Source of the DNA: Owenia fusiformis
Lineage: Eukaryota > Annelida > Polychaeta > Sabellida > Oweniidae
Reading direction: 5' to 3'
DNA length: 64,000 nucleotides
NCBI GenBank assembly: GCA_903813345.2
Contig: CAIIXF020000004.1
Span: forward strand, 15,795,513 to 15,859,512
Part shown: positions 6,983 through 47,792 of the stretch, piece by piece
How the letters are laid out: the number at the start of each line of letters is the position of its first letter
Position numbering within the stretch: position 1 is the first letter of the stretch
Position numbers and translations under genes: made by a program
Notes under the pieces: generated by a model
The model's input: the letters and a program-made list of their open reading frames with translations, nothing else
Databases searched by the model: none
What the model was told of the DNA's origin: nothing

Positions 6983-7606
6983 GAGTTACAACTATCATAG
7001 TGGGCCGTAGTCTAGTTTGCATAGTCTTTCGTATAGCAGTATTCTATTTCACGCAAATACAAAAGGAAATCTGATGAATTGCTGAATTGCTAACAAGTGA
7101 AGTAATTATACACCTCTTATTAGCTTAAATTCACTTCATATTTGAGCTGAACTCTTTCAATTGCGTGGACATTGGAAACTTAAATATAGGTCTAGCACAG
7201 TCCAAAAAACTGGTGAATTTACTCCATTCAGGTGAGGGAGGTAAACAATATTGATTTTTTTTGTATGGTCATGCCATATAATATCAATGCAAAAATTCAT
7301 TGCCTATTAATGTCTAATGACACAGCCAGTAAGGAAACATGCTTACTGTTCCACTTGGTTGGTTTTCAACTTATGTATTTCACCTTATAGTAATCAGTTA
7401 ACAGGACTCTGAACTGTATTCCACTTACAGAGGTGTTCCTATTCACAGGTTTAACTGTACATGTTACAAGTATTTTACTTTTATTCATTCCTGACTCCAC
7501 TCTTATCTCCATGATACCAGCCATATCATAAACTTCTCATCTGATTGACTGAACATTTCACTACACTGTATTTAAATATAAATAAATTGCCTAAATTGAT
7601 TTAATA
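6983..7606. other. 3' flank of GFM1
   Basis: Sequence downstream of the GFM1 stop codon on the minus strand, including the presumed 3' UTR to about 7460. Nothing else recognised. Confidence 0.4.
7480..7485 (-). promoter_or_regulatory. Candidate polyadenylation signal of GFM1
   Basis: AATAAA on the minus strand about 120 bases after the GFM1 stop codon. It is the first canonical hexamer met; cleavage downstream of it is inferred. Confidence 0.4.
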
Positions 7607-7798
7607 TCAGTTCCGCTTCTTCTTTTTCTGAGACTGTGGATTTTGCTTGTTCAGTTCTTCCTCATATTCCGATATAAGGGCCTCTTGTGTGCTTGGTATT
7701 GCTATACAGTATTTACAGTACTCCATTGTGTATTCTCCTTTGCCTTGAGTGGATGAACGGAGCTCTGTGGAGTAACCAAACATGTCATTGAGCGGGAT
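7607..7798 (-). CDS. GFM1: GFM1 final exon (end of domain V, stop)
   Basis: Acceptor TATGCTTTCAG at 7810-7799, then 63 codons and TGA at 7609-7607. It starts [15 protein letters not shown], the near-invariant EF-G domain V helix, and continues [10 protein letters not shown] and PSTQEALI. The first 27 bases of this exon plus 45 bases of the intron before it form the monomer that is repeated throughout the upstream intron. Confidence 0.93.
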
Positions 7799-10700
7799 CT
7801 GAAAGCATACAAATTGCAGAGGGTTTAGAGGCAATATTTTAAAGTAACCAAACATGTCATTGAGGGGGATCTAAAAGCATAAAATTGCAGAGGGTTTAGA
7901 GGCAATATTCTAAAGTAACCAAACATGTCATTGAGGGGGATCTAAAAGCATACAAATTGTAGAGGGTTTAGAGGCAATATTCTAAAGTAACCAAACATGT
8001 CATTGAGGGGGATCTGAAAGCATACAGATTACAGAGGGTTTAGAGGCAATATTCTAAAGTAACAAAACATGTCATTGAGGGGGATCTGAAAGCATACAAA
8101 TTGCAGAGGGTTTAGAGGCAATATTCTGAAGTAACCAAACATGTCATTGAGGGGGATCTGAAAGCATACAAATTGCAGAGGGTTTAGAGGCAATATTCTG
8201 AAGTAACAAAACATGTCATTGAGGGGGATCTGAAAGCATACAAATTGCAGAGGGTTTAGAGGCAATATTCTAAAGTAACCAAACATGTCATTGAGGGGGA
8301 TCTGAAAGCATACAAATTGCAGAGGGTTTAGAGGCAATATTCTAAAGTAACCAAACATGTCATTGAGGGGGATCTGAAAGCATACAAATTGCAGAGGGTT
8401 TAGAGGCAATATTCTAAAGTAACCAAACATGTCATTGAGGGGGATCTGAAAGCATACAAATTGCAGAGGGTTTAGAGGCAATATTCTAAAGTAACCAAAC
8501 ATGTCATTGAGGGGGATCTAAAAGCATACAAATTGCAGAGGGTTTAGAGGCAACATTCAAAAGTAACCAAACATGTCATTGAGGGGGATCTGAAAGCATA
8601 CAAATTGTAGAGGGTTTAGAGGCAATATTCTAAAGTAACCAAACATGTCATTGAGGGGGATCTGAAAGCATACAAATTGCAGAGGGTTTAGAGGCAATAT
8701 TCTAAAGTAACCAAACATGTCACTGAGGGGGATCTGAAAGCATACAAATTGCAGAGGGTTTAGAGGCAATATTCTAAAGTAACCAAACATGTCATTGAGG
8801 GGGATCTGAAAGCATACAAATTGCAGAGGGTTTAGAGGCAATATTCTAAAGTAACCAAACATGTCACTGAGGGGGATCTGAAAGCATACAAATTGCAGAG
8901 GGTTTAGAGGCAATATTCTAAAGTAACCAAACATGTCATTGAGGGGGATCTGAAAGCATACAAATTGCAGAGGGTTTAGAGGCAATATTCTGAAGTAACC
9001 AAACATGTCATTGAGGGGGATCTAAAAGCATACAAATTGCAGAGGGTTTAGAGGCAATATTCTAAAGTAACCAAACATGTCATTGAGGGGGATCTGAAAG
9101 CATACAAATTGCAGAGGGTTTAGAGGCAATATTCTAAAGTAACCAAACATGTCATTGAGGGGGATCTAAAAGCATACAAATTGCAGAGGGTTTAGAGGCA
9201 ATATTCTAAAGTAACCAAACATGTCATTGAGGGGGATCTGAAAGCATACAAATTGTAGAGGGTTTAGAGGCAATATTCTAAAGTAACCAAACATGTCATT
9301 GAGGGGGATCTGAAAGCATACAAATTGCAGAGGGTTTAGAGGCAATATTCTAAAGTAACCAAACATGTCACTGAGGGGGATCTGAAAGCATACAAATTGC
9401 AGAGGGTTTAGAGGCAATATTCTAAAGTAACCAAACATGTCATTGAGGGGGATCTGAAAGCATACAAATTGCAGAGGGTTTAGAGGCAATATTCTAAAGT
9501 AACCAAACATGTCACTGAGGGGGATCTGAAAGCATACAAATTGCAGAGGGTTTAGAGGCAATATTCTAAAGTAACCAAACATGTCATTGAGGGGGATCTG
9601 AAAGCATACAAATTGCAGAGGGTTTAGAGGCAATATTCTAAAGTAACCAAACATGTCACTGAGGGGGATCTGAAAGCATACAAATTGCAGAGGGTTTAGA
9701 GGCAATATTCTAAAGTAACCAAACATGTCATTGAGGGGGATCTGAAAGCATACAAATTGCAGAGGGTTTAGAGGCAATATTCTGAAGTAACCAAACATGT
9801 CATTGAGGGGGATCTGAAAGCATACAAATTGTAGAGGGTTTAGAGGCAATATTCTAAAGTAACCAAACATGTCATTGAGGGGGATCTAAAAACATACAAA
9901 TTGCAGAGGGTTTAGAGGCAATATTCTAAAGTAACCAAACATGTCATAGAGGGGGATCTGAAAGCATACAAATTGTAGAGGGTTTAGAGGCAATATGCTA
10001 AAGTAACCAAACATGTCATTGAGGGGGATCTGAAAGCATACAAATGGTAGAGGGTTTAGAGGCAATATTCTAAAGTAACCAAACATGTCATTGAGGGGGA
10101 TCTGAAAGCATACAAATTGCAGAGGGTCTAGAGGCAATATTCTGAAGTAACCAAACATGTCATTGAGGGGGATATGAAAGCATACAAATTGCAGAGGGTT
10201 TAGAGGCAATATTCTAAAGTAACCAAACATGTCATTGAGGGGGATCTGAAAGCATACAAATTGCAGATGGTTTAGAGGCAATATTCTAAAGTTACCAAAC
10301 ATGTCATTGAGGGGTATCTGAAAGCATAAAATTGCAGAGGGTTTAGAGGCAATATTCTAAAGTAACCAAACGTGTCATTGAGGGGGATCTGAAAGCATAC
10401 AAATTGTAGAGGGTTTAGAGGCAATATGCTAAAGTAACCAAACATGTCATTGAGGGGGATCTAAAAGCATACAAATTGCAGAGGGTTTAGAGGCAATATT
10501 CTAAAGTAACCAAACATGTCATTGAGGGGGATCTGAAAGCATACAAATTGCAGAGGGTTTATAGGCAATATTCTAAAGTTACCAAACATGTTATTGAGGG
10601 GGATCTGAAAGCATACAAATTGCAGAGGGTTTAGAGGCAATATTCTAAAGTAACCAAACATGTCATTGAGGGGGATCTGAAAGCATACAAATTGTAGAGG

Positions 10701-13579
10701 GTTTATAGGCAATATTCTAAAGTAACCAAACATGTCATTGAGGGGGAGCTGAAAGCATACAAATTGTAGAGGGTTTAGAGGCAATATTCTAAAGTAACCA
10801 AACATGTCATTGAGGGGGATCTGAAAGCATACAAATTGCAGAGGGTTTGGAGGCAATATTCTAAAGTAACCAAACATGTCATTGAGGGGGATCTGAAAGC
10901 ATACAAATTGCAGAGGGTTTGGAGGCAATATTCTAAAGTAACCAAACATGTCATTGAGGGGGATCTGAAAGCATACAAATTGCAGAGGGTTTAGAGGCAA
11001 TATTCTAAAGTAACCAAACATGTCATTGAGGGGGATCTAAAAGCATACAAATTGCAGAGGGTTTAGAGGCAATATTCTAAAGTAACCAAACATGTCATTG
11101 AGGGGTATCTGAAAGCATAAAATTGCAGAGGGTTTAGAGGCAATATTCTAAAGTAACCAAACGTGTCATTGAGGGGTATCTGAAAGCATAAAATTGCAGA
11201 GGGTTTAGAGGCAATATTCTAAAGTAACCAAACGTGTCATTGAGGGGGATCTGAAAGCATACAAATTGTAGAGGGTTTAGAGGCAATATGCTAAAGTAAC
11301 CAAACATGTCATTGAGGGGGATCTAAAAGCATACAAATTGCAGAGGGTTTAGAGGCAATATTCTAAAGTAACCAAACATGTCATTGAGGGGGATCTAAAA
11401 GCATACAAATTGTAGAGGGTTTAGAGGCAATATTCTAAAGTAACCAAACATGTCATTGAGGGGGATCTAAAAGCATACAAATTGCAGAGGGTTTAGAGGC
11501 AATATTCTAAAGTAACCAAACATGTCATTGAGGGGGATCTGAAAGCATACAAATTGTAGAGGGTTTAGAGGCAATATTCTAAAGTAACCAAACATGTCAT
11601 TGAGGGGGATCTAAAAACATACAAATTGCAGAGGATTTAGAGGCAATATTCTAAAGTAACCAAACATGTCATTGAGGGGGATCTGAAAGCATACAAATTG
11701 CAGAGGGTTTATAGGCAATATTCTGAAGTAACCAAACATGTCATTGAGGGGGATCTGAAAGCATACAAATTGTAGAGGGTTTAGAGGCAATATTCTAAAG
11801 TAACCAAACATGTCACTGAGGGGGATCTGAAAGAATACAGATTGCAGAGGGTTTATAGGCAATATTCTAAAGTTACCAAACATGTTATTGAGGGGGATCT
11901 GAAAGCATACAAATTGCAGAGGGTTTAGAGGCAATATTCTAAAGTAACCAAACATGTCATTGAGGGGGATCTAAAAGCATACAAATTGCAGAGGGTTTAG
12001 AGGCAATATTCTGAAGTAACCAAACATGTCATTGAGGGGGATCTGAAAGCATACAAATTGTAGAGGGTTTAGAGACAATATTCTGAAGTAACCAAACGTG
12101 TCATTGAGGGGGATCTGAAAGCATGCAAATTGCAGAGGGTTAAGAGGCAATACTTTAGTTCAGGATGAAGTTGGAAACAAGACTCGGTTTCTTATTGGTT
12201 TGAATGCCAATATGGTGCACATATCGATTACTGAACTATGAATACCAAACATCGACCTCCAACTACCCTGCCGCCACAATATGTTGGAGACTATAACAAT
12301 GTGTCACCAATTATTGTGATGACAAGCCATATAACAAATCTGAAATATATACATGCTCAAAATGGTTCATCAAGGAATGGCCCATATCATGTTTAATGTA
12401 CAAGAATGGAACGCATAGAAGCAATTTTTGGATGGAAGAGTTCTACATAGAAAAACTTACCTCACAAAATATACTTGCAAACCCCTCATTTGCATCAGTT
12501 CCCGTGATAAGAGCATGCCGTTTATTTAGACCAATCATGACAGCTCCCTTGAATTCTGTAGGGGTCGTGACCTCTACAGACATTATAGGCTCCAACAGTT
12601 GCCACATTCCATTACTTAAAACTGCAACACAAAAAACAATATTGTAACAATAATCCATCTAGTTTATATAATTTATCATAGTGTCACAGGTTCATACATA
12701 TACAATAATTTAAATACAATACTAAATTACATCAAAATCCTCTAGCCTATGCCGACTTTTGAGACACTTATATGAATACATAAATAGCATCAATAATTAC
12801 AATGTAATTAAAAACGTCTCAGATTAAATGCTCTCTTTTGTACAGATATAACGTTTGGTGATTGATTACTGTTATCATGTTAGATTGAAAAGCTTTCTTC
12901 CTTTTTGTCCCTGATCTAAGCTATACTGATAGTAGCCCTGATTGTCAAATTTAATTTTTTTACTTTTTCTTACATACTGTGGCTGAACATATACTACCCT
13001 GTTATATGACTATATTTCCAAATATGGACTCTGTTAGCTGAACCTATGATCATGAATCGTTTTCATGTCATGGTAAAACCATGGTGAAACTGGAAATATA
13101 TATCCTAAATATAAATTGAATACCTTGCTTTACGGCGCCCTCTGCAGCCTGTTGGAAGGACCAATCAGACGAGTCAACAGCATGACTAGCGCCATCTTTT
13201 AGAACAAACTTAAGTCCTGTTATCCTTTGTCCTGCTAGAATACCTTTTTCACAAGCACTCATAAACCCCTGTAATATAAGTAGATTACCATTTCTGTCTT
13301 TGATTCATAGTTCACACAATTTGAATGATCTGCCCCATCTCCAATTTTCTCATCATTTAATGAACTCTTAATAAATAAGAATAAATTTTAAATCATTTGT
13401 TTAGGATTTAAATATGCCAAACGTTTCTCAGCCAATCAGCATTGAGTCATTCAGTGCATTTACTTTAAAACATATTCTAAAAGTACCTTTTTAATAGATG
13501 GTATATAAGTCTTTGGTATGTTGGTTCCTGTTGTTTCATCTACAAATTCTAGCTTCGTATACTCATCAGCTGGTAGTGG
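7607..13579 (-). CDS. GFM1: Mitochondrial elongation factor G1, C-terminal four exons (5' part not found)
   Basis: Four exons (13579-13487, 13268-13124, 12621-12461, 7798-7607) join in frame into 195 residues that match the C-terminus of mitochondrial EF-G1, the GTPase that translocates tRNA-mRNA on mitoribosomes. Recognisable stretches are [37 protein letters not shown]-like [20 protein letters not shown] and [10 protein letters not shown]. They cover the end of domain IV and domain V, which contact the decoding site and the stalk region. All splice sites are GT-AG with conserved phases (0, 1, 0). The protein ends in a Lys-rich tail (KKKKRN), as in other animal mtEF-G1. Domains G, II, III and early IV should lie upstream at higher coordinates, but no matching exon was seen. 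The last intron (4.66 kb) is almost entirely a 72-bp junction-derived tandem array. Identification rests on remembered family motifs, not on a search. Confidence 0.93.
7772..12155 (-). repeat. 72-bp minisatellite made of the GFM1 intron/last-exon junction, ~61 copies
   Basis: From CATGTCATTG at 7781 to CGTGTCATTG at 12097 the unit recurs 60 times at 72 bp (one copy is 71 bp). On the minus strand each unit reads: branch-point-like CTAAAC, a pyrimidine-containing stretch, TATGCTTT(C/T)AG, then the first nine codons of the last GFM1 exon, then TTTAGAATATTGCC instead of the real exon continuation. The unit is 24 codons long and open in the GFM1 frame except where CAG has become TAG or small indels occur. 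CAG and TAG acceptor variants alternate irregularly. The nearest copies to the exon (7853, 7924) both carry TAG, and the first has a 1-bp deletion. The array accounts for nearly all of the last intron. Its predicted peptides are not regarded as an independent gene. Confidence 0.95.
12461..12621 (-). CDS. GFM1: GFM1 exon (start of domain V)
   Basis: Acceptor TTTGTGTTGCAG, donor GAG|GTAAGT (consensus). It completes a split Val codon, then encodes 53 residues containing [10 protein letters not shown] and [13 protein letters not shown], the beta-strand start of the EF-G C-terminal domain. It ends on a full Glu codon, so the next exon joins in phase 0. Confidence 0.93.
13124..13268 (-). CDS. GFM1: GFM1 exon (domain [11 protein letters not shown] segment)
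   Basis: Acceptor CTTATATTACAG, donor CAAG|GTATTC. The 48 codons plus one base include [19 protein letters not shown] and AAEGAVKQ, as in mtEF-G1. Confidence 0.92.
13487..13579 (-). CDS. GFM1: GFM1 exon (domain IV, 31 codons)
   Basis: Acceptor TTCTATTCCAG, donor AAG|GTACTT, phase 0 at both ends. Encodes [12 protein letters not shown] ... IPSIKK, which in the family directly precedes the GF(L/M).ACEKG segment. Confidence 0.88.
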
Positions 13580-31410: not shown

Positions 31411-33767
31411 AACTAGATTTGTGAAATTGAACAAGTTCAATTTAAGACTCCAGATTTATTTGACCTAGATAGATCAGTAAAGAGCTGAGTAAGTAACTGA
31501 GTAATTAGCTGAGTAAGTACCTTAGTAGAAGTTGAGTAAGTAGCTGAGTAAGTAACTGAGTAAAAAGCTGAGTAGGTAGCTGAGTAAGTAGCTGAGTAAG
31601 TACCTGAGTTAGTAGCTGAGTAAGTTGCTAAGTAAGTAATAACTAATTAAGTAATTGAGTAAGTTGTCAAATAAGTAGCTGAGTAGGGAGAGGTAAAGTA
31701 GGGTATGCAGTATGCAGTATATTTGATCAATCTGCATCGTGAATACTGGCAAGTGGGAATTTCAAACTTCAAAATGGCGTAGAATCTAAACCGGGAGTCG
31801 GATTGCAATTTTAATTACAGATCCGGATTCCTGAGGAAATTCTACCCCTAATTCATAACTCATACTTTAAAATTGGAGAACTTTTATTTTGACCTACATT
31901 TCGGACACCATATCTCAAAAGTGGGTCAAAAAACTTATTGACGGCAAAATGTTAACATTATTAGCACACTCTTTACTACAAGTATACAAAATTTCAGAGA
32001 ATATCATTGAAGTAGGTCAGAATCGCAAAATAAAAAAAAACTATGAATTTGACCTAGATTTTGAACTAGGTATTTTGGTGTCCAAACTTTGAAGGAAAGT
32101 AGTTTTTGAGGTCCCCTTCTTCTATGGGCTTTCATTATGTTTAGCTTTACTCATTCTATATCTCGTATTTTTACACTTCAAAAAATAATTCGGTCCCATT
32201 GATTTAACATGGGGCACCAAATTTAGCGATTTTTGAGATTTCAAAACGCCATAACTTCCGCACGGGAAGTCGGATCAAAATTTGGTTTGCAGATTCGGAT
32301 TCCTGATAAAATTCTACCCCTTATTTATTACTCATTACGTTAAATTTGAAGATTTTTTTATTTTGACCTACTTTTGGGACACCATATCTCAAAAGAAGGT
32401 CAAAATACTTTTTGACGGCAAAAGGCTAACACTATTAGCATACTCTTGGCTACATGTATACACAATTTCGAAGAATATAATTAGAGTGTAGTGTCAAAAT
32501 CGCAAAAATAAGGAAAAACTTTGAATTTGACCTAGATTTTGACCTAGGCATTTGTGTGTCCAAATTTTTAAGCTAGATGGCTTTTGAGGTCGCCTTCTTT
32601 TAAAAGCTTCCATTATATTTAGCTGAACTCAGTCTATATTTCGTATTTTTCACTTCAAAAAAAATCTTTTTTCCCATTGACTTAACATGGGCACCAAATT
32701 TAGCGATTTTTGAGCTTTCAAAACGCCATAACTTCCAAACTAAAAAACTGAAATTTGGTTTGCAGATTCGGATTCCTGAGATAATTCTACCCTTAATCCA
32801 TAACTCATACGTTGAATTTGTAGAACTTTTTATTTTGACCTACTTTTCGGACACGCCATAACTTCCGAACCGGAAGTCTGATCGAAATTTGGTTTGCAGA
32901 TCTGGATTCCTGACAAAATCCTACCCCTAATTCATAACTCATACGTTAAATTTGAAAAAACTTTATATTTTGACCTACATTTGGGACAACATATCTCAAA
33001 AGTGGGTCAAAATACTTTCTGACGGCAAAAGGCTAACACTATAAGCACACTCTTGGCTACATGTATACACAATTTTGAAGAATATAATTAAAATGTAGTG
33101 TCAGAATCGCAAAAATAAGGAAAAACTTTGAATTTGACCTAGATTTTGACCTAGGCATTTTGGTGTCCAAATTTTTAAGAAAAGAAGGTTTTGAGGTCCC
33201 TTTCTTTTATGGGCTTCCATTATGTTTAGCTGTACTTAGTCTATATCTCATATTTTACACTTCAAAAAAATCTTTTTTTCCATTGAATTAACATGGGACA
33301 CCAAATTTAGCGATTTTTGAGCTTTCAAAACGATATAACTTCCGAACCGGAAGTCGGATCGAAATTTGGTTTTCAGATTCGGAATCCTGAGGAAATTTCC
33401 TACAACACCAGTAGCCTGGACATTTAATTGGGAGAACTTTTTTTTGGACCTCGTTTTCGGACACTGATATCTCGAAATCAGTTTGAGATATCAAAAAACT
33501 AAATCGACCTGTTTTCCCCTACTTTTTTATGAGGAACACAATGAAAAAAACCCGGATTGAAAATATTGAAGGACGAGCGAGAAAATTGAAAAAAGTGACA
33601 AAGTACTGGATTTGACCTAGTTCTTGACCTTTGACCTAGATAAAAATTTGACCTAATTTCCCATCATCCCAGATACATTCCCTAGTTGATCATGTAAGCA
33701 GCTTAAAGTAAGCTCTTCTAGTTGGTGAGAAATCTGGGAAGGAGGAAGATTCTGAAAGAATAATAAT
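31411..33767 (+). mobile_element. Tandem element unit 1 of 9 (Helitron/Helentron-like, non-autonomous)
   Basis: Starts AACTAGATTTGTG, hairpin AAATTGAAC-AA-GTTCAATTT, AGACTCCAGAT; then a (GAGTAAGTAGCT)-type minisatellite (31478-31690), several ~430-bp cores beginning CGCCATAACTTCC, and a tail with a perfect DR1 (33625-33637). The 3' hairpin is absent. Its first ~0.4 kb is nearly identical to unit 3. Confidence 0.75.
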
Positions 33768-35464
33768 AACTAGATTTGTAAATTGAACAAAGTTCAATTT
33801 AAGACTCCAGATTGATTTACTTGAGTAGGTAGCTGAGTAAGTAACTGAGTAGCAAGCTGAGTAAGTAGATGATTAAGTAATTGAGTGAGTAGCTGAGTAG
33901 GTAGCTGAGAAGGAAGCTGAGTAAGCAGCTGAGTAGGTAGCTGAGTAAGTAGCTGAGTAGGTAGCCGAGAAGTAGGTAGCTAAGTAGGTAGCCGAGTAGG
34001 TATGTAGGTAGGTAGGTAAGTAGGAATTTTTGACCGAAAGTCGGATTGAAATTTAGTTTGCAGATTCAGATTCCTGGGAAAATTCTACCCTTATTTCATA
34101 ACTCATACATTAAATTTGGAGATTTTTTTATTTTGATCCACTTTTAGGACGCCATATCTCAAAAATGGGTCAAAATACTTTCTGACGGCAAAAGGCTATC
34201 ACTATTAGGACACTCTTTTCTACCTGTATACAAGATTTTGAAGCAAATCCTAAAAGTGTAGTGCCAGAATCGTAAAAATAAGGAAAAACTATGAATTTGA
34301 CCTAGATTTTGACCTAGGCATTTTGGTGTCCAAATATTGAAACTAGGTAGCTTATTGAGGTCCCCTTCTTTTATAGGAATTCATTATCTTAAGCTGTACT
34401 CAGTCTATATCTCGTATTTTACTCTTCAAAAAAATATTTTTTCCTTGACTTTCTATCAGGATACCATCAGATCGATTTTTCTCGAAATTTCAAAACGCCA
34501 TAACTTCCGAACGGGAAGTCGGATTGAAATTTGGTTTGCAGATTCGGATTCCTGAGAAAATTCTTTCCTTAATTCGTAACTCAAACGTTGAGTTTGGAGA
34601 AATTTTTATTTTGACCTACTTTTCGGACACCATATCTCAAAAGTGGGTCAAAATACTTTCTGACGGCAAAAGGCTAACACTATAAGCACACTCTTGGCTA
34701 CATGTATACAAAATTTCAAAGAATATAATTAATCTGTAGTGTCAGAATCGCAAAAATAAGGAAAAACTTTGAATTTGACCTAGATTTTGACCTAGGCATT
34801 TTGGTGTCCAAAATTTTATGAAAAGAAGGTCTTGAGGTCCCTTTCTTTTATGGGCTTCCATTATGTTTAGCTGTGCTTAGTCTATATCTCGTATTTTACA
34901 CTTCAAAAACATATTTTTTCCCATTGAATTAACATGGGGCACCAAATTTAACGATTTTTGAATTTTCAAAACGCCATAACTTCTGAACCGGAAGTCAGAT
35001 CGAAATTTGGTTTTCAGATTCGGAATCCTGAGAATATTTCCTATAAGACTGAAATCCTGGACATTGGATTCGGAGAACTTTTTTTTGGACCTCGTTTTCG
35101 GACACTGATATGTCGAAATCGGTTTGAGATACCAAAAAACTAAATCGACCTTAGCTTTTCTACTTTTTTATGAGGAACACAATGAAAAAAAAACAGATCA
35201 AAAATATTGAAGGACGACCGAGATAATGGGAAAAAGTGACAAAGTACTGGATTTGACCTAGTTCTTGACCTTTGACCTAGATAAAAATTTGACCTAATTT
35301 CCCATAATCCCAGATACATTCCCTAGTTGATCATGTAAGCAGCTTAAAGTAAGTTCTTCTAGTTGGTGAGAAATCTTGTAAGGAGGAAGAATAAGAAAAA
35401 AAATAATAAGAAAACTGGCAAAAGCAATAGACTCCAGATTTTCAATCTGGAGTCTAATAATAAT
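33768..35464 (+). mobile_element. Tandem element unit 2 of 9
   Basis: Same start; minisatellite of GTAGCTGAGTAG type (33818-34020); cores; DR1 at 35266-35278; 3' hairpin AGACTCCAGAT...ATCTGGAGTCT at 35429-35455, then CTAATAATAAT leading straight into unit 3. Confidence 0.75.
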
Positions 35465-37530
35465 AACTAGATTTGTGAAATTGAACAAGTTCAATTTAAG
35501 ACTCCAGATTTATTTTACCTAGATAGATCAGTAAAGAGCTGAGTAAGTAACTGAGTAATTAGCTGAGTAAGTACCTTAGTAGTAGTTGAGTAAGTAGCTG
35601 AGTAAGTAACTGAGTAAAAAGCTGAGTAGGTAGCTGAGTAAGTAGCTGAGTAAGTACCTGAGTTAGTAGCTGAGTAAGTTGCTAAGTAAGTAATAACTAA
35701 TTAAGTAATTGAGTAAGTAGTCAAATAAGTAGCTGAGTAGGTAGAGAGGTAAAGTAGGGTATGCAGGAATTTTTGAAAGTATATTTGATCAATCTGCATC
35801 GTGAATACTGGCAAGTGCGAATTTAAAACTTCAAAATGGCGTAGAATCTAAACCTGGGGTCGGATTGCAATTTTTGCTACAAGTATTCAAAATTTCGGAG
35901 AATATCATTGAAGTGTAGTGTCAGAATCGCAAAATAAGAAAAAACTATGAATTTGACCTAGATTTTTTAAACTAGGTATTTTGGTGTCCAAACTTTGAAG
36001 GAAAGTAGCTTTTGAGGTCCCCTTCTTCTATGGGCTTTCATTATGTTTAGCTGTACTCATTCTATATCTCGTATTTTTACACTTCAAAAAATTATTCGGT
36101 CCCAATGATTTAACATGGGGCACCAAATTTAGCGATTTTTGAGATCTCGAAACGCCATAACTTCAGAACAAGTAGTCGGATCGAAATTTGGTTTGCAGAT
36201 CTAGATTTCTGAGAAAATTCTACCCTTAATTCATAACTCATACGTTAATTTTGGAAAACTTTTTACTTTGGCCTACTTTTTGGACACCATATCTCAAAAG
36301 TGGGTCAAAATACTTTCTGACGGCAAAACACTAACACTATTAGCATACTCTTTGCTACCTGTATACAAAATTTTAAAGCAAATCATTTAAATATAGTGTC
36401 AGAATCGCAAAAATAAGGGAAAACTATAAATTTGACCTAGATTTTGACCTAGGCATTTTGGTGTCCAAATTTTGGAGCTAAGTAGCCTTCGAGGTCCCCT
36501 TCTTTAATAGGCTTTCATTAAATTAAGCTGTACTCAGTCTATATCTTGTATTTTACACTTCAAAAAAATCTTTTTTCCCATTGCCATAACATGGGGCACC
36601 AAATTTAGCGATTTTTGAGCTGTCAAAACGACATAAATTCCAAACCAAAAGCCAGATAGAAATTTGGTTTGCAGATTTGGATTCCTGAGAAAATTCTACC
36701 CTTAATTCATAACTCATACGTTAAATTTGGAGAACTTTTTAGTTTGACCTACTTTTCGGACACCATATCTCAAAAGTGGGTCAAAATACTTCCTGACGGC
36801 AAAAGGCTAACACTATTAGCACACTCTTGGCTACATGTACACAAATTTTCGAAGAATATAATTAATCTGTAGTGTCAGAATCGCAAAAATAAGGAAAAAC
36901 TTTGAATTTGACCTAGATTTTGACCTAGGCATTTTGGTGTCCAAATTTTTATGAAAAGAAGGTCTTGTGGTCCCTTTCTTTTATGGGCTTCCATTATGTT
37001 TAGCTGTGCTTAGTCTATATCTCGTATTTTTCACTTCAAAAAAATATTTTTTCCCATTGAATTAACATGGGGCACCAAATTTAGCGATTTTTGAATTTTC
37101 AAAACGCCATAACTTCTGAACCGGAAGTCAGATCGAAATTTGGTTTTCAGATTCGGAATCCTGAGAAAATTTCCCATAAGACTAATATCCTGGACATTGG
37201 ATTCGGTGAAATTTTTTTTGGACCTCGTTTTCGGACACTGATATCTCGAAATCGGTTTGAGATACCAAAAAACTAAATCGACCCTAGGTTTTCTACTTTT
37301 TTATGAGGAACACAATGAAAAAACCAGGATCAAAAATATTGGAGGACGACCGAGATAATGGGAAAAAGTGACAAAGTACTGGATTTGACCTAGTTCTTGA
37401 CCTTTGACCTAGATAAAAATTTGACCTAATTTCCCAGAAAGCCAGATACATTCCCTAGTTAATCATGTAAGCAGCTTAAAGTAAGCTCTTCTAGTTGGTG
37501 AGAAATCTGGGAAGGAGGAAGAAGAATAAT
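35465..37530 (+). mobile_element. Tandem element unit 3 of 9
   Basis: 5' end and minisatellite (35530-35745) match unit 1 almost base for base. After 35875 one core block present in unit 1 is missing. DR1 at 37398-37410; no 3' hairpin. Confidence 0.75.
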
Positions 37531-39261
37531 AACTAGACATGTAAATTGAACAAGTTCAATTTAAGACTCCAGATTTCAAACTTTTTTTAAGCTAAGTAAT
37601 CCAGAAGTTGTAAGCTGAGTCATTCAGAATAAGCTGAGTCAGCTAGAATATAGACATTTAGACAACTTCTAAGAAGGCTATCTTCGACTCTATTGGCTTA
37701 ACATGGGGATATCATCATATCGACTTTTGGAGACTTCAAACCGCTATAACTATCTAACCAGAAGTTAGATCGAAATTTGGTTTAAAGATTCTGATTCCTG
37801 AGAAAATTCTACCCTTAATTCATAACTCATACGTTAAATTTGGAGATTTTTTTATTTTGACCTACATTTCGGACACCATATCTCAAAAGTGGGTCAAAAA
37901 ACTTTCTGACGGCAATGGCTAACACTTTAAGCACACTCTTTGCTACCTGTATACAAAACTTTGAAGCAAATCCTTAAAGTGTAATGTCAGAATCGCAAAA
38001 ATAAGGAAAAACTATTAATTTGACCTAGATTTTGACTTAGGCATTTTGGTGTCCAAATTTTAAAGCTAGATAACCTTCGAGGTCCCCTCCTTTTCTAGGC
38101 TTTCAGAATATTAAGCTGTACTCAGTCTATATCTGGTATTTTACACTTCAAAAAAATCCTTTTTCTCATTGACATAACATGGGGCACCAAATTTAGCGAT
38201 TTTTGAGCTTTCAAAACGCCATAACTTTCGAACCGGAAGTTGGATCGAAATTTGGTTTGCAGATTCGGATTCCTGACAAAATTCTACCCCTAATTCATAA
38301 CTCATACGTTAAATTTGGAATTTTTTTATTTTGACCTACTTTTTGGACACGCCATAACTTCCGAACCGGGTGTCGGATCGAAATTTGGTTTGCAGATTCT
38401 GATTCCTGAGAAAATTCTACCCTTAATTCATAACTCATACGTTGAATTTGGAGAATATTTTATTTTGACCTACTTTTCGGACACCATATCTCAAAAGTGG
38501 GTCAAAATACTTTCTGACGGCAAAAGGCTTACACTATTAACACACTCTTTGCTACCTGTCTACAAAATTTGGAAGCAAATCATTATAGTGTAGTGTCAGA
38601 ATCGCAAAAATAAGTTAAAACTATAAATTTGACCTAGATTTTGACCTAGGCATTTAGGTGTCGAAATTTTAAAGCTAGGTAGCTTTTGAGGTCCCCTTCG
38701 TTTATAGGCTTTCATTATCTTAAGCCGTATTCAGTCTATATTTTGTATTTTACACTTCAAAAAAATCTTTTTTCCCATTGACTTAACATGGGGCACCAAA
38801 TTTAGCGTTTTTTAGCTTTAAAAATGCCATAACTTCCGAACAGGAAATCAGATCGAAATTTGGTTTGCAGATTTGGATTCCTAGGAAAATTCTACATCTT
38901 TTTCATAGCTCACACATTCAATTTGGAGGATGTTTTGTCGTGACCTACATTTCGGACGCCATATCTCAAAATCGGTAAGAGTAATCAAAATTCTGATGTC
39001 ATATCTTTGGTTCGCCTTTTTCTAAGCTACACGATGAAAAAAAGATGAAGGAGTTACGAAGAATATTAAAGAAGATATGATGAAGAATGTTGAAAATGTA
39101 AGATTTGACCTAGTTCTTGACCTTTGACCTAGATAAAAATTTGACCTAATTTCCCAGAAAGCCAGATACATTCCCTAGTCAACCATGTAGGTTGGATTAA
39201 GTAAGATGTTATAGTTGGAGAGAAAAACTGTTAGGAGGAAGAAAGAAAGAAGAATAATAAT
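37531..39261 (+). mobile_element. Tandem element unit 4 of 9
   Basis: Instead of the minisatellite it has only short GCTGAGTCAT-CAGAATA repeats (37605-37650). The first core carries AACCGCTATAACTATCTAACC instead of the usual CGCCATAACTTCC. DR1 at 39118-39130; no 3' hairpin. Confidence 0.75.
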
Positions 39262-41099
39262 AACTAGACATGTAAATTGAACAAGTTCAATTTAAGACTC
39301 CAGATTTAAACCTTTTTTTAAGCTGAGTCATCCAAAATACTGTAAGGTGAGCCATTCAGAATAAGCTGAGTCAGCTAGAATATAGACATTTAGACAACTT
39401 TTAAGAAGGCTATCTTCGACTCTATTGGCTTAACATGGGGATATCATCATATTGACTTTTCGAGACTTCAAACCGCTATAACTATCTAACCAGAAGTTAG
39501 ATTGAAATTTGGTTTAAAGATTCTGATTTCTGAGAAAATTCTAACCTTAATTCATAACTCATACGTTAAATTTGGAGAATTTTTATTTTTGACCTACATT
39601 TCGGACACCATATCTCAAAAGTGGGTCAAAAAACTTTTTGACGGCAGAAGGCTAACACTATAAGCACACTCTTTGCTACCTGTATACAAAATTTTGAAGC
39701 AAATCCTTAAAGTGTAATGTCAGAATCGCAAAAATAAGGAAAAACTATGAATTTGACCTAGATCTTGACCAAGGAATTTTTGCGTCCAAATTTTAAAACT
39801 AGATAGCCTTCGAGGTCCCCTCCTTTTATAGGCTTTCAGAATATTAAGCTGTACTCAGTCTATATCTGGTATTTTACACTTCAAAAAATCCTTTTTCTCA
39901 TTGACATAACATGGGGCACCAAATTTAGCGATTTTTGAGCTTTCAAAACGCCATAACTTTCGAACCGGAAGTCGGATCGAAATTTGGTTTGCAGATTCGG
40001 ATTCCTGACAAAATTCTACTCCTAATTCATAACCCATACATTAAATTTGAAATTTTTTTTATTTTGACCTACTTTTTGGACACGCCATAACTTCCGAACC
40101 GGAAGTCGGATTGAAATTTGGTTTGCAGATTCAGATTCCTGAGAAAATTCTACTCTTAATTCATAACTCATACGTTGAATCTGGAGAACTATTTATTTTG
40201 ACCTACTTTTCGGACACCATATCTCAAAAGTGGGTCAAAATACTTTCTGACGGCAAAAGGCTAACACTATTAGCACACTCTTTGCTACCTGTATACAAAA
40301 TTTTGAAGTAAATTATTAAAGTGTAGTGTCAGAATCGTAAAAATAAGGAAAAACTATGAATTTGACCTAGATTTTGACCTAGGCATTTTGGTGTCCAAAT
40401 TTTGAAGCTATGTAGCTTTTGAGGTCCCCTTCTTTTATAAGCATTCATTATGTTAAGCTGTACTCAGTCAATATCCTGTATTTTACACTTCGAAAAAGTC
40501 TTTTTTCCCATTGACTTAACATAGGCACCAAATTTAGCGATTTTTGAGCTTTCAAAACGCCATAACTTCCGCACGGGAAGTCGGATCGAAATTTGGTTTG
40601 CAGATTTGGATTCCTGAAAAAATTCTACATCTTTTTCATAGCTCACACATTCGATTTGGAGCATGTTTAGGCGTGACCTACATTTCGGACGCCATATCTC
40701 AAAATCGGTAAGAGTAATCAAAATTCTGATGTCATATCTTTGATTCGCCTTTTTCTAAGCTACACGATGAAAAAAAGATGAAGGAGTTACGAAGAATATT
40801 GACGAAGATATGATGAAGAATGTTGCAAATGTAAGATTTGACCTAGTTCTTGACCTTTGACCTAGATAAAAATTTGATCTAATTTCCCAGAAAGCCAGAT
40901 ACATTCCCTAGTCAACCATGTAGGTTGGATTAAGTAAGATGTTACAGTTGGAGAGAAAATCTGTTAGGAGGAAGAAAGAAAGAAGAATAATAATAATAAG
41001 AAAACAGGCAAAAACAATAGACTCCAGATTTTCAATCTGGAGTCTAATAAGAAAACAGGCAAAAACAATAGACTCCAGATTTTCAATCTGGAGTCTAAT
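39262..41099 (+). mobile_element. Tandem element unit 5 of 9
   Basis: Closest to unit 4. DR1 at 40851-40863. Its 3' end is duplicated: two identical 51-bp segments each carry the terminal hairpin (41019-41045 and 41070-41096). Confidence 0.75.
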
Positions 41100-42720
41100 A
41101 ACTAGACATGTAAATTGAACAAGTTCAATTTAAGACTCCAGATTTAATACTTTTTTTTAAGCTGAGTCATCCAGAATACTTGTAAGCTGAGTCATCCAGA
41201 ATAAGCTGATCGAGTCAGCTAGAATTTAGACATTTAGACAACTCTCAATTTTTTATCTTCGACTCCATTGGCTTAACATGGGGATATCATCATATCGACT
41301 TTTCGAGACTTCAAACCGCTATAACTATCTAACCAGAAGTTAGATTGAAATTTGGTTTAAAGATTCGGACTCCTGAGAAAATTCTACCCTTAATTCATAA
41401 CTTATATGTAAAATTTGGAGAATTTTTTATTTTGACCTACTTTTCGGACACCATATCTCAAAAGTGGGTCAAAATACTCTCTGACGGCAAAAGGCTAACA
41501 CTATTAGCCCACTCTTTGCTACCTGTATACAAAATTTTGAAGCAAATCCTAAAAGTGTAGTGCCAGAATCGCAAAAATAAGGAAAAACTATGTATTTGAC
41601 CTAGATTTTGACCTAGGGATTTTGGTGTCCAAATTTTAAAGCTAGATAGCCTTCCAGGTCCCCTTCTTTTATAGACTTTCAGAATCTTAAGCTGTACTCA
41701 GTCCTTATCTGGTATTTTACACTTCAAAAAAATCTTTTTTCTCATTGACATAACATGGGGCACCAAAATTAGCGATTTTTGAGCTTTCAAAACGCCATAA
41801 CTTCCCAACAAAAAGTCGGATTGAAATTTGGTTTGCAGATTCGGATTCCTGAGAAAATTCTACCCTTAACTCTTAGCTCATATGTTAAATTATGAGAAAT
41901 TTTTATTTTGACCTACTTTTCGGACACCATATCTCAAAAGTGGGTCAAAATACTTTCTGACGGCAAAAGGCTAACACTATTAGTACACTCTTTGCTACCT
42001 GTATACAAAATTTTGAAGCAAATTATTAAAGTGTAGTGTCAGAATCGTAAAAATAAGGAAAAACTATGAATTTGACCTAGATTTTGACCTAGGCATTTTG
42101 GTGTCCAAATTTTGAAGCTAGGTAGCTTTTGAGGTCCCCTTCTTTTATAGGCATTCATTATGTTAAGCTGTGCTCAGTCTATATCTTGTATTTTACACTT
42201 CGAAAAAGTCTTTTTTCCCATTGGCTTAACATGGGCACCAAATTTAGCGATTTCAAAACGCTATAGCTTCCGAACCGGAAGTCGGATCAAAATTTGGTTT
42301 CCAGATTTGGATTCCTGAGGAAATTTTACACTTATTTCATGACTCATACGTTGAATTTGGAGAACTTTTTCGTTTGACCTACTTTCCGGACGCAATATCT
42401 CAAAATCGGTAGAAGTAATCAAAAAACTGATAACTCACTGTCGAATCGTCTTTTTCTTGGCTACACGTTAAAAAAAAAATTTTGAAAAAATATTGAAAAA
42501 TGACAAAGATAATTCACAAAATGATAATTTGACCTAGATTTTGACCTTTGACCTAGATAAAAATTTGACCTAATTTCCGGGAAACTAGGTCTCATTACCT
42601 TTTTAACTATGTAAGCAGATTTCAGAAAGTCCCTCTAGTTGCTGAGAAAACGCGGAAAGAAAGAATAATAAGAAAACTGGCAAAAGCAATAGACTCCAGA
42701 TTTTCAATCTGGAGTCTAAT
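41100..42720 (+). mobile_element. Tandem element unit 6 of 9
   Basis: 5' end like units 4 and 5, 3' part like unit 9 (CGGACGCAATATCTCAAAATC). DR1 at 42542-42554; hairpin at 42691-42717. Looks recombinant between subfamilies. Confidence 0.75.
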
Positions 42721-44600
42721 AACTAGACTTTGGAAATTGAACAAGTTCAATTTCAGACTCCAGATTAAGACCTTTTTTAGCCGAGTCATCCAGAATAAGC
42801 CGAGTCATCCAGAATAAGCTGAGTCATCCAAAAAAAGATGGATGAATAAAATAGAAAGGTAGGATAGGATAGAATAGGAAGGGATGATAGGATCGAATAA
42901 GAAAGAAGGATAGGATAGAATAAGAAGAAAGGATATGATAGGATAGGATAGGAAGGAAAAGATACGAAGGAAGGATAGATAGGAAGGATAGGATAGGATA
43001 GGATCAGATAGGAAGGATGGATGAATTTTTCAATATTTTCTTCTCTACTCTTGACTTTCTATCAGGATACCATCAGATCGATTTCAAAACGCCATAACTT
43101 CCAAACCGGCAGTCAGATCCAAATTTAGTTTGCATATTCGGATTCCTGACAAAATTCTACCCCTAATTCATAACTCATACGTTAAATTTGGAAACTTTTT
43201 ATTTTGACCTAGTTTTTGGACACGCCATAACTTCCGAACCGGAAGTCGGATCGAAATTTGAATTGCAGATTCGGATTCCTGACAAAATTCTACACCTAAT
43301 TCATAACTCATCCGTTAAATTTGGAGATTTTTCTTATTTTGACCTACTTTTCGGACACCATATCTCAAAAGTGGGTCAAAATACTTTCTGAAGGCAAAAG
43401 GCTAACACTATTAGCACACTCTTGGCTACATGTATACACAATTTCGAAGAATATAATTGGAGTGTAGTGGCAGAAACGCAAAAATAAGGAAAACCTTTGA
43501 ATTTGACCTAGATTTTGACCTAGGCATTTTGGTGTCCAAATTTTGAAACTAACTGGCTTTTGAGGTCCCCTTTTTTTGAAGGCTTTCATTAATTTAAGCT
43601 GAACTCAGTCTATATTTCGTATTTCTCACTTCAAAAAAATCTTTTTTTCCCATTGATTTAACATGGGCACCAAATTTAGCGATTTTTGAGCTTTTAAAAC
43701 GCCATAACTTCCGAACCGGAAGTCGGATCAAAATTTGTTTTGCAGATTCGGATTCCTGAAAAAATTCTACCCCTAATTGATAACTCATACCTTGAATTTG
43801 GAGAACTTTTTATTTTGACATACTTTCTGGACGCCATTTTTCAAAATCGGTAAGAGTAATCAAAAAACGGATGGCACACATATGAAAGGGCTGTTTCTAA
43901 GCTACATGATGAAAAAAAGATGAAGACGTTTCGATGAATAACAACGAAGATAATAGACAGAAGGTTGAAAATGTAAGATTTGACCCAGTTCTAGGATAGG
44001 ATAGGATATAGAATAGGAAGGAAGGATAGGATAGGAAGGAAGGGATAGGAAGGAAGGATAGATAGGAAGGATATGATCAGACAGGATAGGAAGGAAGGAT
44101 GGATGATTTTTTCTATATTTTCTTCGCTACTCTTGACTTTCTATAAGGATATCATCAGATCGATTTTTCTCGAAATTTCAAAACGCCATAACTTTCGAAC
44201 CGGAAGTCGGAACGAAATTTGGTTTGCAGATTCGGATTCCTGAGTAAATTCTACCCTTAATTCATAACTCAGATGTTAAATTTGGAGAACTTGTTATTTT
44301 GACCTACTTTCTGAACGCCATATTTCAAAATCGGTAAGAGTAATCAAAAAACGGATGGCATACTTATGAAAGAGCTGTTTCTAAGCTACATAATGAAAAA
44401 AAGATTTAGGAGTTACGATAAACAACGACGAAGATAAATGACAGAATGTTGAAAATGTAAGATTTGACCTAGTTCTTGACCTTTGACCTAGATAAAAATT
44501 TGACCCAATTTCCGAGAAACTAGATCTAGGACCTAAATGGACCATATATAAGACTTGACTCAATATATTCTAGTTAACGAGAAAACTGGGAAAGAAGAAT
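42721..44600 (+). mobile_element. Tandem element unit 7 of 9, internally rearranged
   Basis: Starts AACTAGACTTTGG like the solitary copy at 21-22.8 kb. It has two (GGATAGGAAG)-type microsatellites (42840-43020 and 43990-44105). The second begins abruptly inside a core tail (TTTGACCCAGTTCTAGGATAGG), as expected from unequal exchange joining two units. DR1 at 44477-44489; no 3' hairpin. Confidence 0.75.
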
Positions 44601-46001
44601 AACTAGACTTTGGAAATTGAACGAAGTTCAATTTCAGACTCCAGATTTAGACCATTTTTAGCCGAGTCATCCATAATAAGCTGAGTCATCCAGAAAAAGA
44701 TGGATGAATAAAATAGGAAGGTAGGATAGGATGGAATAGGAAGGAACGATAGGATAGAATAAGAAAGAAGGATAGGATAGAACAGAATAGGAAGAAAGGA
44801 TATGATAGGAGAGGATAGGAAGGAAAAGATACGAAGGAAAGATAGATAGGAAGGATAGGATAGGATAAGATCAGATAGGAAGGATGGATAAATTTTTCAA
44901 TATTTTCGACTTCTCTACTCTTGACTTTCTATCAGGATACCATCAGATCGATTTTCCGAAATTTCAAAACGCCATAACTTCCGGACCGGAAGTTGGATCG
45001 AAATTTGATTTAAAGATTTGGATTCCTGACAAAATTCTACCCTTAATTCATAACTCATACGTTACATTTGGTGAATTTCTATTTTGACCTACTTTTCGGA
45101 CACGCCATAACTTCGGAACCGGAAGTCGAATCGAAATTTGGTTTGCAGATTCGGATTCCTGAGAAAATTCTACCTTTAATTCATAACTAAAACGTTAAAT
45201 TTGGAGAACTTTTTATTTTGACCTACTTTTCGGACACCATATCTCAAAAGTGGGTCAAAATACTTTCTGACGGCAAAAGGCTAACACTATTAGCACACTC
45301 GTGGCTACATATATACACAATTTCGAGGAATATAATTAAAGTGTAGTGTCAGAATTGCAAAAATGAGGAAAACCTTTGGATTTGACTTAGATTTTGACCT
45401 AGGGAGTTTGGTGTCCAAATTTTGAAGCTAGATGGCTTTTGAGGTCCCCTTCTTTTAAAGGCTTTGATTATATGAAGCTGAACTCAGTCTTTATTCCGTA
45501 TTTTTCACTTCAAAAAAATATTTTTTCCCATTGACTTAACATGGGCACCAAATTTAGCGATTTTTGAGTTTTCAAAACGCCATAACTTCCGAACTGGAAG
45601 TCGGATCGAAATTTCGTTTTCAGACTCGGAATCCTGAGAAAATTCCCTATAATATTAATATCCTGGACATTTGATTCGGAGAACTTTTTTTTGGACCTCG
45701 TTTTCGGACACTGATATCTCAAAATCGGTTTGAGATATCAAAAAACTAAATCGACCCTAGGTTTCCTACTTTTTTGTAAGGAACACAATGAAAAAAACTC
45801 GGATCGAAAATATTGAAGGACGACCGAGAAAATCGAAAAAAGTGACAAAGTACTGGATTTGACCTAATTCTTGACTTTTGACCTAGATAAAAATTTGACC
45901 CAATTTCCGAGGAACTAGATTCTGGACCTAAATTGACCAAATGACTGACTTTACTGAAAACCTTACGGTTATTGAGAAAACTTGCTTAGAATAATAATAA
46001 T
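44601..46001 (+). mobile_element. Tandem element unit 8 of 9
   Basis: Shortest unit (1.4 kb). Palindromic start has the TTGAACGAAGTTCAA form; GGATAGGAAG microsatellite at 44700-44885; the DR1 is decayed (TGACTTTTGACCT near 45872); no 3' hairpin. Confidence 0.75.
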
Positions 46002-47792
46002 AACTAGACATGTAAATTGAACAAGTTCAATTTAAGACTCCAGATTTAATACTTTTTTTAAGCTGAGTCATCCAAATACTTGTAAGCTGAGTCATTCAGA
46101 ATAAGCTGAGTCAGCTAGAATATAGACATTTAGACAACTCTTAAGAATGTTATCTTCGACTCCATTGGCTTAACATGGGGATATCATATCAACTTTTCGA
46201 GACTTCAAACCGCTATAACTATCTAATCAGAAGTTGGATCGAAATTTGGTTTAAAGATTCTGATTCCTGAGAAAATTCTACCCTTAATTCATAACTCATA
46301 CGTTAAATTTGGAGAAACTTTCATGTTGACCTACTTTTCGGACACTATATCTCAAAAGTGGGTCAAAATACTTTCTGACGGCAAAAGGCTAACACTATTA
46401 GCACACTCTTTGCTACATGTATACAAAATTTTGAAGCAAATAATTAAAGTGTAGTGTCAGAATCGCAAAAATAAGTTAAAACTATAAATTTGAACCAGAT
46501 TTTGACCTAGGCATTTTGGTGACCAAATTGTGAAGCTAGCTAGCTTTTGAGGTCCCTTTCTTTGATAGGCTTTCATTATGTGAAGCTGTACTCAGTCTTT
46601 ATCTCGTATTTTACACTTCAAAAAATCTTTTTTCCCATTGCCATAACATGGGGCACCAAATTTAGCGATTTTTGAGCTTTCAAAACTACATAAATTCCAA
46701 ACCAAAAGTCGGATTGAAATTTGGTTTGCAGATTTGGATTCCTGAGAAAATTCTACCCTCAATTCATAACTCATACGTTAAATTTGGAGAACTTTTTAGT
46801 TTGACCTACTTTTCGGACACCATATCTCAAAAGTGGGTCAAAATACTTTCTGACGGCAAAAGGCTTACACTATTAGCACACTTTTGGCTACCTGTATACA
46901 AAATTTTGAAGAAAATTATTAAAGTGTAGTGTCGGAATCGTAAAAATAAGGAAAAACAATAAATTTGACCTAGATTTTGACCTAGGCATTTTGATGTCCA
47001 AATTTTGAAGCTAGGTAGCTTTTGAGGCCCCCTTCTTTTATGGGCATTCATTATGTTAAGCTGTACTCAGTCTATATCTTGTATTTTACACTTCGAAAAA
47101 GTCTTTTTTCCCATTGGCTTAACATGGGCACCAAATTTAGCAATTTCGAAACGCTATAGCTTCCGAACCGGAAGTCAGATCGAAATTTAGTTTGCAGATT
47201 TGGATTCCTGAGGAAATTTTACACTTATTTCATAACTCATACGTTGAATTTGGAGAACTTTTTCGTTTGACCTACTTTCCGGACGCAATATCTCAAAATC
47301 GGTAAAAGTAATCAAAAAACTGATTACTCACATTCGAATCGTCTTTTTCTTGGCTACACGTTAAAAAAAACTTTTTGAAAAAATATTGAAAAATGACAGA
47401 GATAATTGACAAAATGATAATTTGACCTAGATTTTGACCTTTGACCTAGATAAAAATTTGACCTAATTTCCCAGAAACTAGGTCTCATTACCTATTTAAC
47501 CATGTAAGCAGATTTCAGAAAGTCCCTCTAGTTGCTGAGAAAACTGGTTCGGAAAGAAAAATAATAATAAGAAAACTGGCAAAAGCAATAGACTCCAGAT
47601 TTTCAATCTGGAGTCTAATAAGAAGAAAAAGAATAATAAGAAAACTAACGAAAACAATAGACTCCAGATTGACATCTGGAGTCTAATAATAAAGAAAACT
47701 GGCAAAAGCAATAGACTCCAGATTTTCATCTGGAGTCTAATAAAGAAAACTGACGAAAGCAATAGACTCGAGATTTTCATCTGGAGTCTAAT
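46002..47792 (+). mobile_element. Tandem element unit 9 of 9, with four 3' hairpins
   Basis: 5' end like units 4 and 5. DR1 at 47435-47447. The 3' terminus is repeated four times in tandem (hairpins at 47590-47616, 47659-47684, 47713-47738, 47764-47789), each preceded by GAAAACTGGC- or GAAAACTGAC-like words. The array ends here. Confidence 0.75.

Follow-up and report, generated by a model that had tools for sequence, protein, structure and literature searches.

Minisatellites that span the boundary between an intron and an exon have been described in amphioxus, where they were named "mirages" and reportedly leave regular splicing undisturbed (PMC3087553, PMC3902484). They occur in the globin genes BflGb6 and BflGb9 and in Adh3, with units of 10-72 bp for Adh3 and 150-160 bp for the globins, and both 5′ and 3′ boundaries are affected (PMC3087553). 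Here we analyse a comparable array in the annelid Owenia fusiformis. It lies at the last intron of a copy of the 3′ end of GFM1, the gene for mitochondrial elongation factor G, within a window of 64,000 nucleotides (assembly GCA_903813345.2, contig CAIIXF020000004.1, positions 15,795,513 to 15,859,512 of the forward strand); positions given without a contig are those of the window. Like the amphioxus mirages, the GFM1 array is a tandem duplication across an intron-exon boundary with splice signals in many, but not all, of its units. It differs from BflGb6, which has 6 and 3 units in its two haplotypes, in presenting 61 boundaries, and the survey of the same genome reported below gives a frequency, unlike the amphioxus reports.

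Related repeats are known in other genes. In lancelet PGBD5, repeats of 60 and 108 bp were likened by the authors to mirages and accurate splicing was inferred, but the 108-bp repeat, unlike the GFM1 array, is a triplication with imperfect copies (PMC3902484). Human genes in segmental duplications contain internal tandem repeats at exon-intron boundaries; these resemble the GFM1 array in lying in recently duplicated genes and in having minisatellite-sized units, and differ in comprising on average four 30-bp units and in the novel introns and alternative splicing reported for them (PMC2812944). The potato RdRp gene gained an intron through a tandem duplication across a boundary which, like the GFM1 unit, carried the branch site, tract, acceptor and exon start (PMC4974935). 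That event was one duplication and gave a new intron that is used, whereas GFM1 has a long array in which a donor-like GGTAACT is present in three copies only. In the Epstein-Barr virus repeat IR1, the tandem units hold both splice sites and the W exons are spliced in series. The GFM1 array shares with IR1 its tandem units with splice sites, but these units have acceptors only.

In the titles and opening abstract lines listed by our literature search, which took in only a minority of subscription papers and so leaves an earlier report possible, mirages appeared solely in the two amphioxus papers, and none offered a genome-wide count. The original prediction for this locus, made from the sequence, knew of no described case; the amphioxus mirages are such cases (PMC3087553, PMC3902484). 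The GFM1 array would add a long instance to those already described, and the surprising part would be the frequency of such arrays in the genome.

A tandem array of 3′ splice sites in a GFM1 intron

Tandem Repeats Finder (TRF) reports a single array with a period of 72, 60.9 copies, 96% matches and a score of 8148 (Table 1). On the minus strand it presents 61 exon-start positions, running from 12114 to 7798, of which 60 are upstream and one is joined to the true exon. Successive starts are spaced by 72 bp in 56 of 60 intervals and by 71 bp in the other four. The original prediction had described about 60 tandem copies of a complete 3′ splice-site module with an exon start, and this description stands. 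So do its donor, with the boundary between exon base 12461 and intron base 12460, and its true exon start at 7798, both confirmed by exon comparison; the distance from this donor to the true acceptor is 4,662 nt. The further claim that the true exon is preceded by the unit and departs from it only after codon nine is correct in that the two sequences diverge from about base 29, but base 6 already differs (CCG for CCC).

Each unit holds both the intron end and the exon start of the adjoining boundary, as expected of a mirage, and, again as in mirages, most units carry the splice signals while some have lost them. At the 61 starts, the intron ends in CAG 47 times, in TAG 13 times and in CAT once. 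Upstream of the true site, 59 of the 60 copies retain AG and 53 retain CTAAA; 52 retain the two together. Identity to the true acceptor extends over −20 to +3 in 28 of these copies and over −40 to +5 in 22, and because 28 upstream sites match the true one in this way, local sequence cannot decide the choice of acceptor. All copies were scored, as the original prediction had proposed, here with a position table whose weights were set by us: the true site scores 2.86, as do 43 of the 60 upstream sites, while two score higher, 14 lower and one lacks AG. This result does no more than restate the sequence identity of the sites.

The array units fall into 29 types, with a mean pairwise identity of 96.4%, and multi-unit blocks of types (CEH, FADAD, ADADB) recur within the array. 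Twenty types occur once; both units at either end of the 60 are of such a type, and the first 30 units account for 14 of the 20. The cluster is thus homogenised inside and less so at its ends, where single types are found on both sides, a further trait of mirages. Neither AATAAA nor ATTAAA occurs inside the array. In a genome search scoring the best candidates only, no copies of the unit were found other than those of the array and one at a second, single-unit GFM1 end.

The array sits in one of two GFM1 3′ ends

Mitochondrial elongation factor G was the top PDB match of the joined exon translations, which identifies the gene as GFM1. Its layout was established from an exon-by-exon search, translations and self-comparison. 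GFM1 has two 3′ ends, and the array belongs to the one formed by a second copy of the last four exons. The only 5′ exons that the search located lie in a locus with open last four exons of its own, 70 kb from the window copy. This other 3′ end contains a single unit (C4:15877984-15878049), its last intron measures 347 nt, the 3′ set ends at 15877.8k, and TRF detects no array there. In the one assembly analysed, we take it as a paralogue. The original picture of one GFM1 donor facing about 61 acceptors is therefore not supported for the gene as a whole, which has a second, array-free 3′ end 70 kb upstream.

Along the direction of transcription, one 5′ exon set is followed by the array-free 3′ set, by partial copies B and C, and finally by the array-bearing window copy of the last four exons. 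Within G000:C4:15867505-15894577 (L005, L006 and L009), exon 457-513 is present three times. Exon 394-461 is also present three times, but two of these are broken: in B the exon is interrupted by a stop, and in C it has a frameshift and has lost its end. The 82 kb that separate the start of the window from the array-free 3′ end gave no 5′ exon match. A candidate for a second full GFM1, on C8, was rejected as its best match is mitochondrial ribosome-releasing factor 2, which makes it GFM2.

The array-free GFM1 gene also has intronic minisatellites, at L009:7746-8522 (70 bp × 10.7) and 230-577 (32 bp × 10.9); no minisatellite was found at an exon end of this gene in the two stretches scanned. 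The exon that opens the group of four has AAG as its acceptor in the array-free end (C4:15879594) and CAG at window position 13579. Beyond the GFM1 5′ exons, sequence within G000:C4:15904196-15906999 (L010) is duplicated in tandem, shifted by ~1.33 kb, and the copies share 99.9% identity across 1,474 bases.

Arrays at other conserved exons of the same genome

To obtain a frequency, 71 exon loci from three protein families, forming 36 gene-like clusters, were surveyed in the same genome, whose GC content is 34% and whose assembly gave no match to COX1. They comprise 30 of 60 Cpn60/TCP1 matches, all 22 AAA matches listed (19 of 154 candidates scored) and 19 of 29 proteasome matches. These are best-scoring exons, several per gene, and the match ends used are those of profile hidden Markov models, not mapped exon ends. 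Arrays with a period of at least 25 account for 7.9% of the bases that flank the matches and for 2.8% of those within them. At 7 of the 71 loci an array straddles a match end, and at none (0/71) does one lie wholly inside a match. Of 142 random flank points, 10.3 would be expected to be straddled, against the 7 observed match ends. This suggests that the placement of arrays is close to blind with respect to exon ends, with a mild deficit possible.

The arrays at these loci are listed in Table 1, where counts of copied sites include the true site. At L061 and L084 the repeat comprises the acceptor and ~40 nt of exon start, with a period of 118 throughout, and 13 copies lie within L061 itself. 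From the L057 array 24 donor copies could be read out, with GT kept in 21. CCT names are the best NCBIfam matches of exon-length pieces, below whole-protein cut-offs, and the other names come from the family search. One further array, at L049, is intron-only near an exon and was left out of the count. Together, these results suggest that GFM1 carries a long representative of a type of array that is common in this genome.

Table 1. Features of the window's GFM1 3′ end and tandem arrays straddling match ends at surveyed exon loci
Feature	Location	Strand	Description
72-bp minisatellite	7771..12152	-	Unit: 28 nt exon start, short joint, ~40 nt intron end with CTAAAC and CAG
Last coding exon, window GFM1 copy	7607..7798	-	...KKKKRN stop; translation, exon comparison
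Intron, donor to first array acceptor	12115..12460	-	346 nt; last intron of array-free copy, 347 nt
Penultimate exon, window copy	12461..12621	-	Donor GAG/GTAAGT; translation, exon comparison
Exon GFMSACEKG...AVKQ, window copy	13124..13268	-	Translation, exon comparison
Exon ...SIKK (PLPAD exon, first of last four), window copy	13487..13579	-	Acceptor CAG; translation, exon comparison
AATAAA, possible poly(A) signal	7480..7485	-	~120 nt past stop codon; sequence
CCT theta	L024:1646-2416		9 acceptors, all with AG
CCT beta	L029:1581-1980		4 acceptors, all with AG
CCT alpha	L019:1291-1600		2 donors
Proteasome gene	L071:1316-1597		3 acceptors, one diverged, read by eye
Another Cpn60/TCP1 gene	L033:1777-1836		2 acceptors in 30-bp repeat, few exon bases, by eye
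AAA-ATPase exon	L061 with L084, G000:C10:6914349-6918597		37 acceptors, all AG
Another AAA-ATPase exon	L057:1621-2740		45-bp exon end and donor, 24.7 copies (TRF)

Besides the listed AATAAA, an ATTAAA is present right at the stop of the window copy. Elsewhere in the window, positions 31818-47298 contain several tandem repeats of 475-478 bp and related units of 133-134 bp.

Alternative explanations

It is possible, although we think it unlikely, that the window 3′ copy is a dead partial duplicate in which the array has no splicing meaning, an explanation that would be compatible with the mirage interpretation. The absence of 5′ exon matches on the window side of the array-free 3′ end speaks for it, as do the broken exon 394-461 of the neighbouring copies B and C and the open state of the array-free 3′ end. 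However, all four window exons are open as well, and the two 3′ ends differ at only 12 of 591 coding bases (8 synonymous and 4 nonsynonymous, dN/dS 0.14) with no indel, whereas their noncoding sequences diverge by 5.5% with 50 indel events (4,228 aligned columns in four chosen blocks). So few nonsynonymous changes were obtained in 0.17% of 3,000 simulated runs in which the window copy was neutral, versus 90% when both copies were constrained, a comparison that involves few changes and model settings chosen by us. Gene conversion could mimic such a pattern. Judged by these counts, both 3′ ends appear to have evolved under constraint over a large part of their history, or else to have shared their exons by conversion. 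Between copy C and the array-free gene, exon 321-392 has 7 synonymous and no nonsynonymous differences, and exon 457-513 has one and three, respectively. The modest noncoding divergence, measured in aligned blocks, might also point to an assembly artefact, either a false expansion of the array or two haplotypes placed in a row, as 5.5% lies within reach of very polymorphic animals. We hold such an artefact to be very improbable: no N bases occur in the 111 kb obtained by joining further stretches to the window, the units are of many types rather than clean copies, arrays of the same kind are found elsewhere in the genome, and the three copies of exon 457-513 are more than two alleles can give.

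The original prediction also offered functions for the array, namely a decoy array, a kinetic brake or a source of isoforms. As a decoy or brake, the upstream acceptors would capture the spliceosome and cut the productive output of the window GFM1 3′ end, and several features would suit this role: the retention of AG in all but one upstream copy, the many exact matches to the true site, a first acceptor just 346 nt from the donor, and the stop to which most acceptors would lead. Nevertheless, the branch point and AG show no depletion of the variation present across the 60 units (85 of 4,320 cells); 5 of their 8 sites are variable versus 23 of 64 elsewhere (P 0.25). Moreover, the other GFM1 3′ end does without an array, and like arrays stand at about the random rate at the sampled exon loci, those of chaperonin and proteasome genes included, all of which makes a decoy or brake a distant prospect. 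Slightly less credible still is a source of protein isoforms, in which upstream acceptors would add 24-residue repeats to EF-G1mt. The unit does correspond to 24 codons, the exon frame is uninterrupted in its main form, and the frame from acceptor 60 extends as far as the true stop. Yet 59 of the 61 starts run into a stop within the array, and the GFM1 stop is reached from starts 60 and 61 only, the rest being closed or shifted by TAG acceptors, 71-bp units and other changes; in addition, the added residues would fall inside the C-terminal domain, which we take to be domain V. No unusual RNA folding was found, three units folding no better than shuffles (z +1.25). Two further candidates were rejected. 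The units do not form an array of recursive splice sites, as they read AG/ATCCCC or near, with no donor directly after AG and the GGTAACT of three copies lying further in, and a coding variable number tandem repeat is excluded by TAG at 13 of 61 boundaries, by the four 71-bp units and by the stops within the array. Taken together, variation, reading frames, folding and the survey frequency would point away from the proposed functions, which appear unsupported.

Discussion

In our view the array is probably a mirage, a minisatellite born by a boundary-spanning tandem duplication in one GFM1 3′ copy and presumably nearly neutral for splicing. Arrays of this kind occur at about one in ten of the sampled conserved exons, so that of GFM1 probably arose as repeats grew and has been tolerated, and is unlikely to be a switch. 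Its anatomy, the array-free copy and the comparable arrays at other genes support this interpretation. It would have begun with a tandem duplication that by chance crossed the junction of last intron and last exon in one of the two 3′ copies, and the joint suggests a short shared ACT plus two added bases. Growth to 61 boundaries would have followed, probably by unequal exchange, since unequal exchange would leave a pattern such as the 29 unit types and their recurring blocks. The likely reason for tolerance is that the exon body and the poly(A) end would define the terminal exon, in which case the joined acceptor wins; if the acceptor joined to the exon body is decisive, as under exon definition, the array would be nearly neutral for splicing. 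The main effect of the extra copies would then be to lengthen the intron from ~347 to 4,662 nt, and little more.

Several points weigh against this interpretation. Both neutrality and exon definition are inferred here from DNA sequence. The authors of the amphioxus study allow that some mirage units could act as cryptic sites (PMC3087553). AG variants amount to 1 of 120 cells versus 2.0% in the rest, and the exon-derived part of the unit is variable at 8 of 28 sites versus 20 of 44 (P 0.22), although neither difference is significant. In the survey, the 7 straddled ends fall below the expected 10.3 and coverage is lower in exon matches, which leaves room for some selection against arrays at boundaries. 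Finally, as 28 of the 60 upstream acceptors are identical to the true one over −20 to +3, a first-come spliceosome should use them. Copy 1, which stands at the ancestral distance from the donor (346 versus 347 nt), would in that case be chosen and its reading frame would end in an array stop. The exon-definition and first-come views predict opposite junction use.

Junction counts at the GFM1 array would show which context decides, whether exon body, poly(A) site or transcription order, and with 29 unit types the reads running through the units may often be placeable. The survey suggests that the same splicing question can be put to several genes of this animal from the chaperonin, proteasome and AAA families, with regard to acceptors as well as donors. 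There is, we estimate, an even chance that the genome is full of mirages, with about one in ten conserved exons having a tandem-copied acceptor or donor, and that the spliceosome picks the site joined to the exon body among locally alike sites. If true, tandem duplications would be nearly blind to exon boundaries and splicing would be tolerant of them. The genome would then represent a natural saturation experiment, opposing exon definition to first-come use, and a pool for intron gain. The survey also suggests that repeats across exon boundaries are nearly neutral, which bears on the growth and gain of introns.
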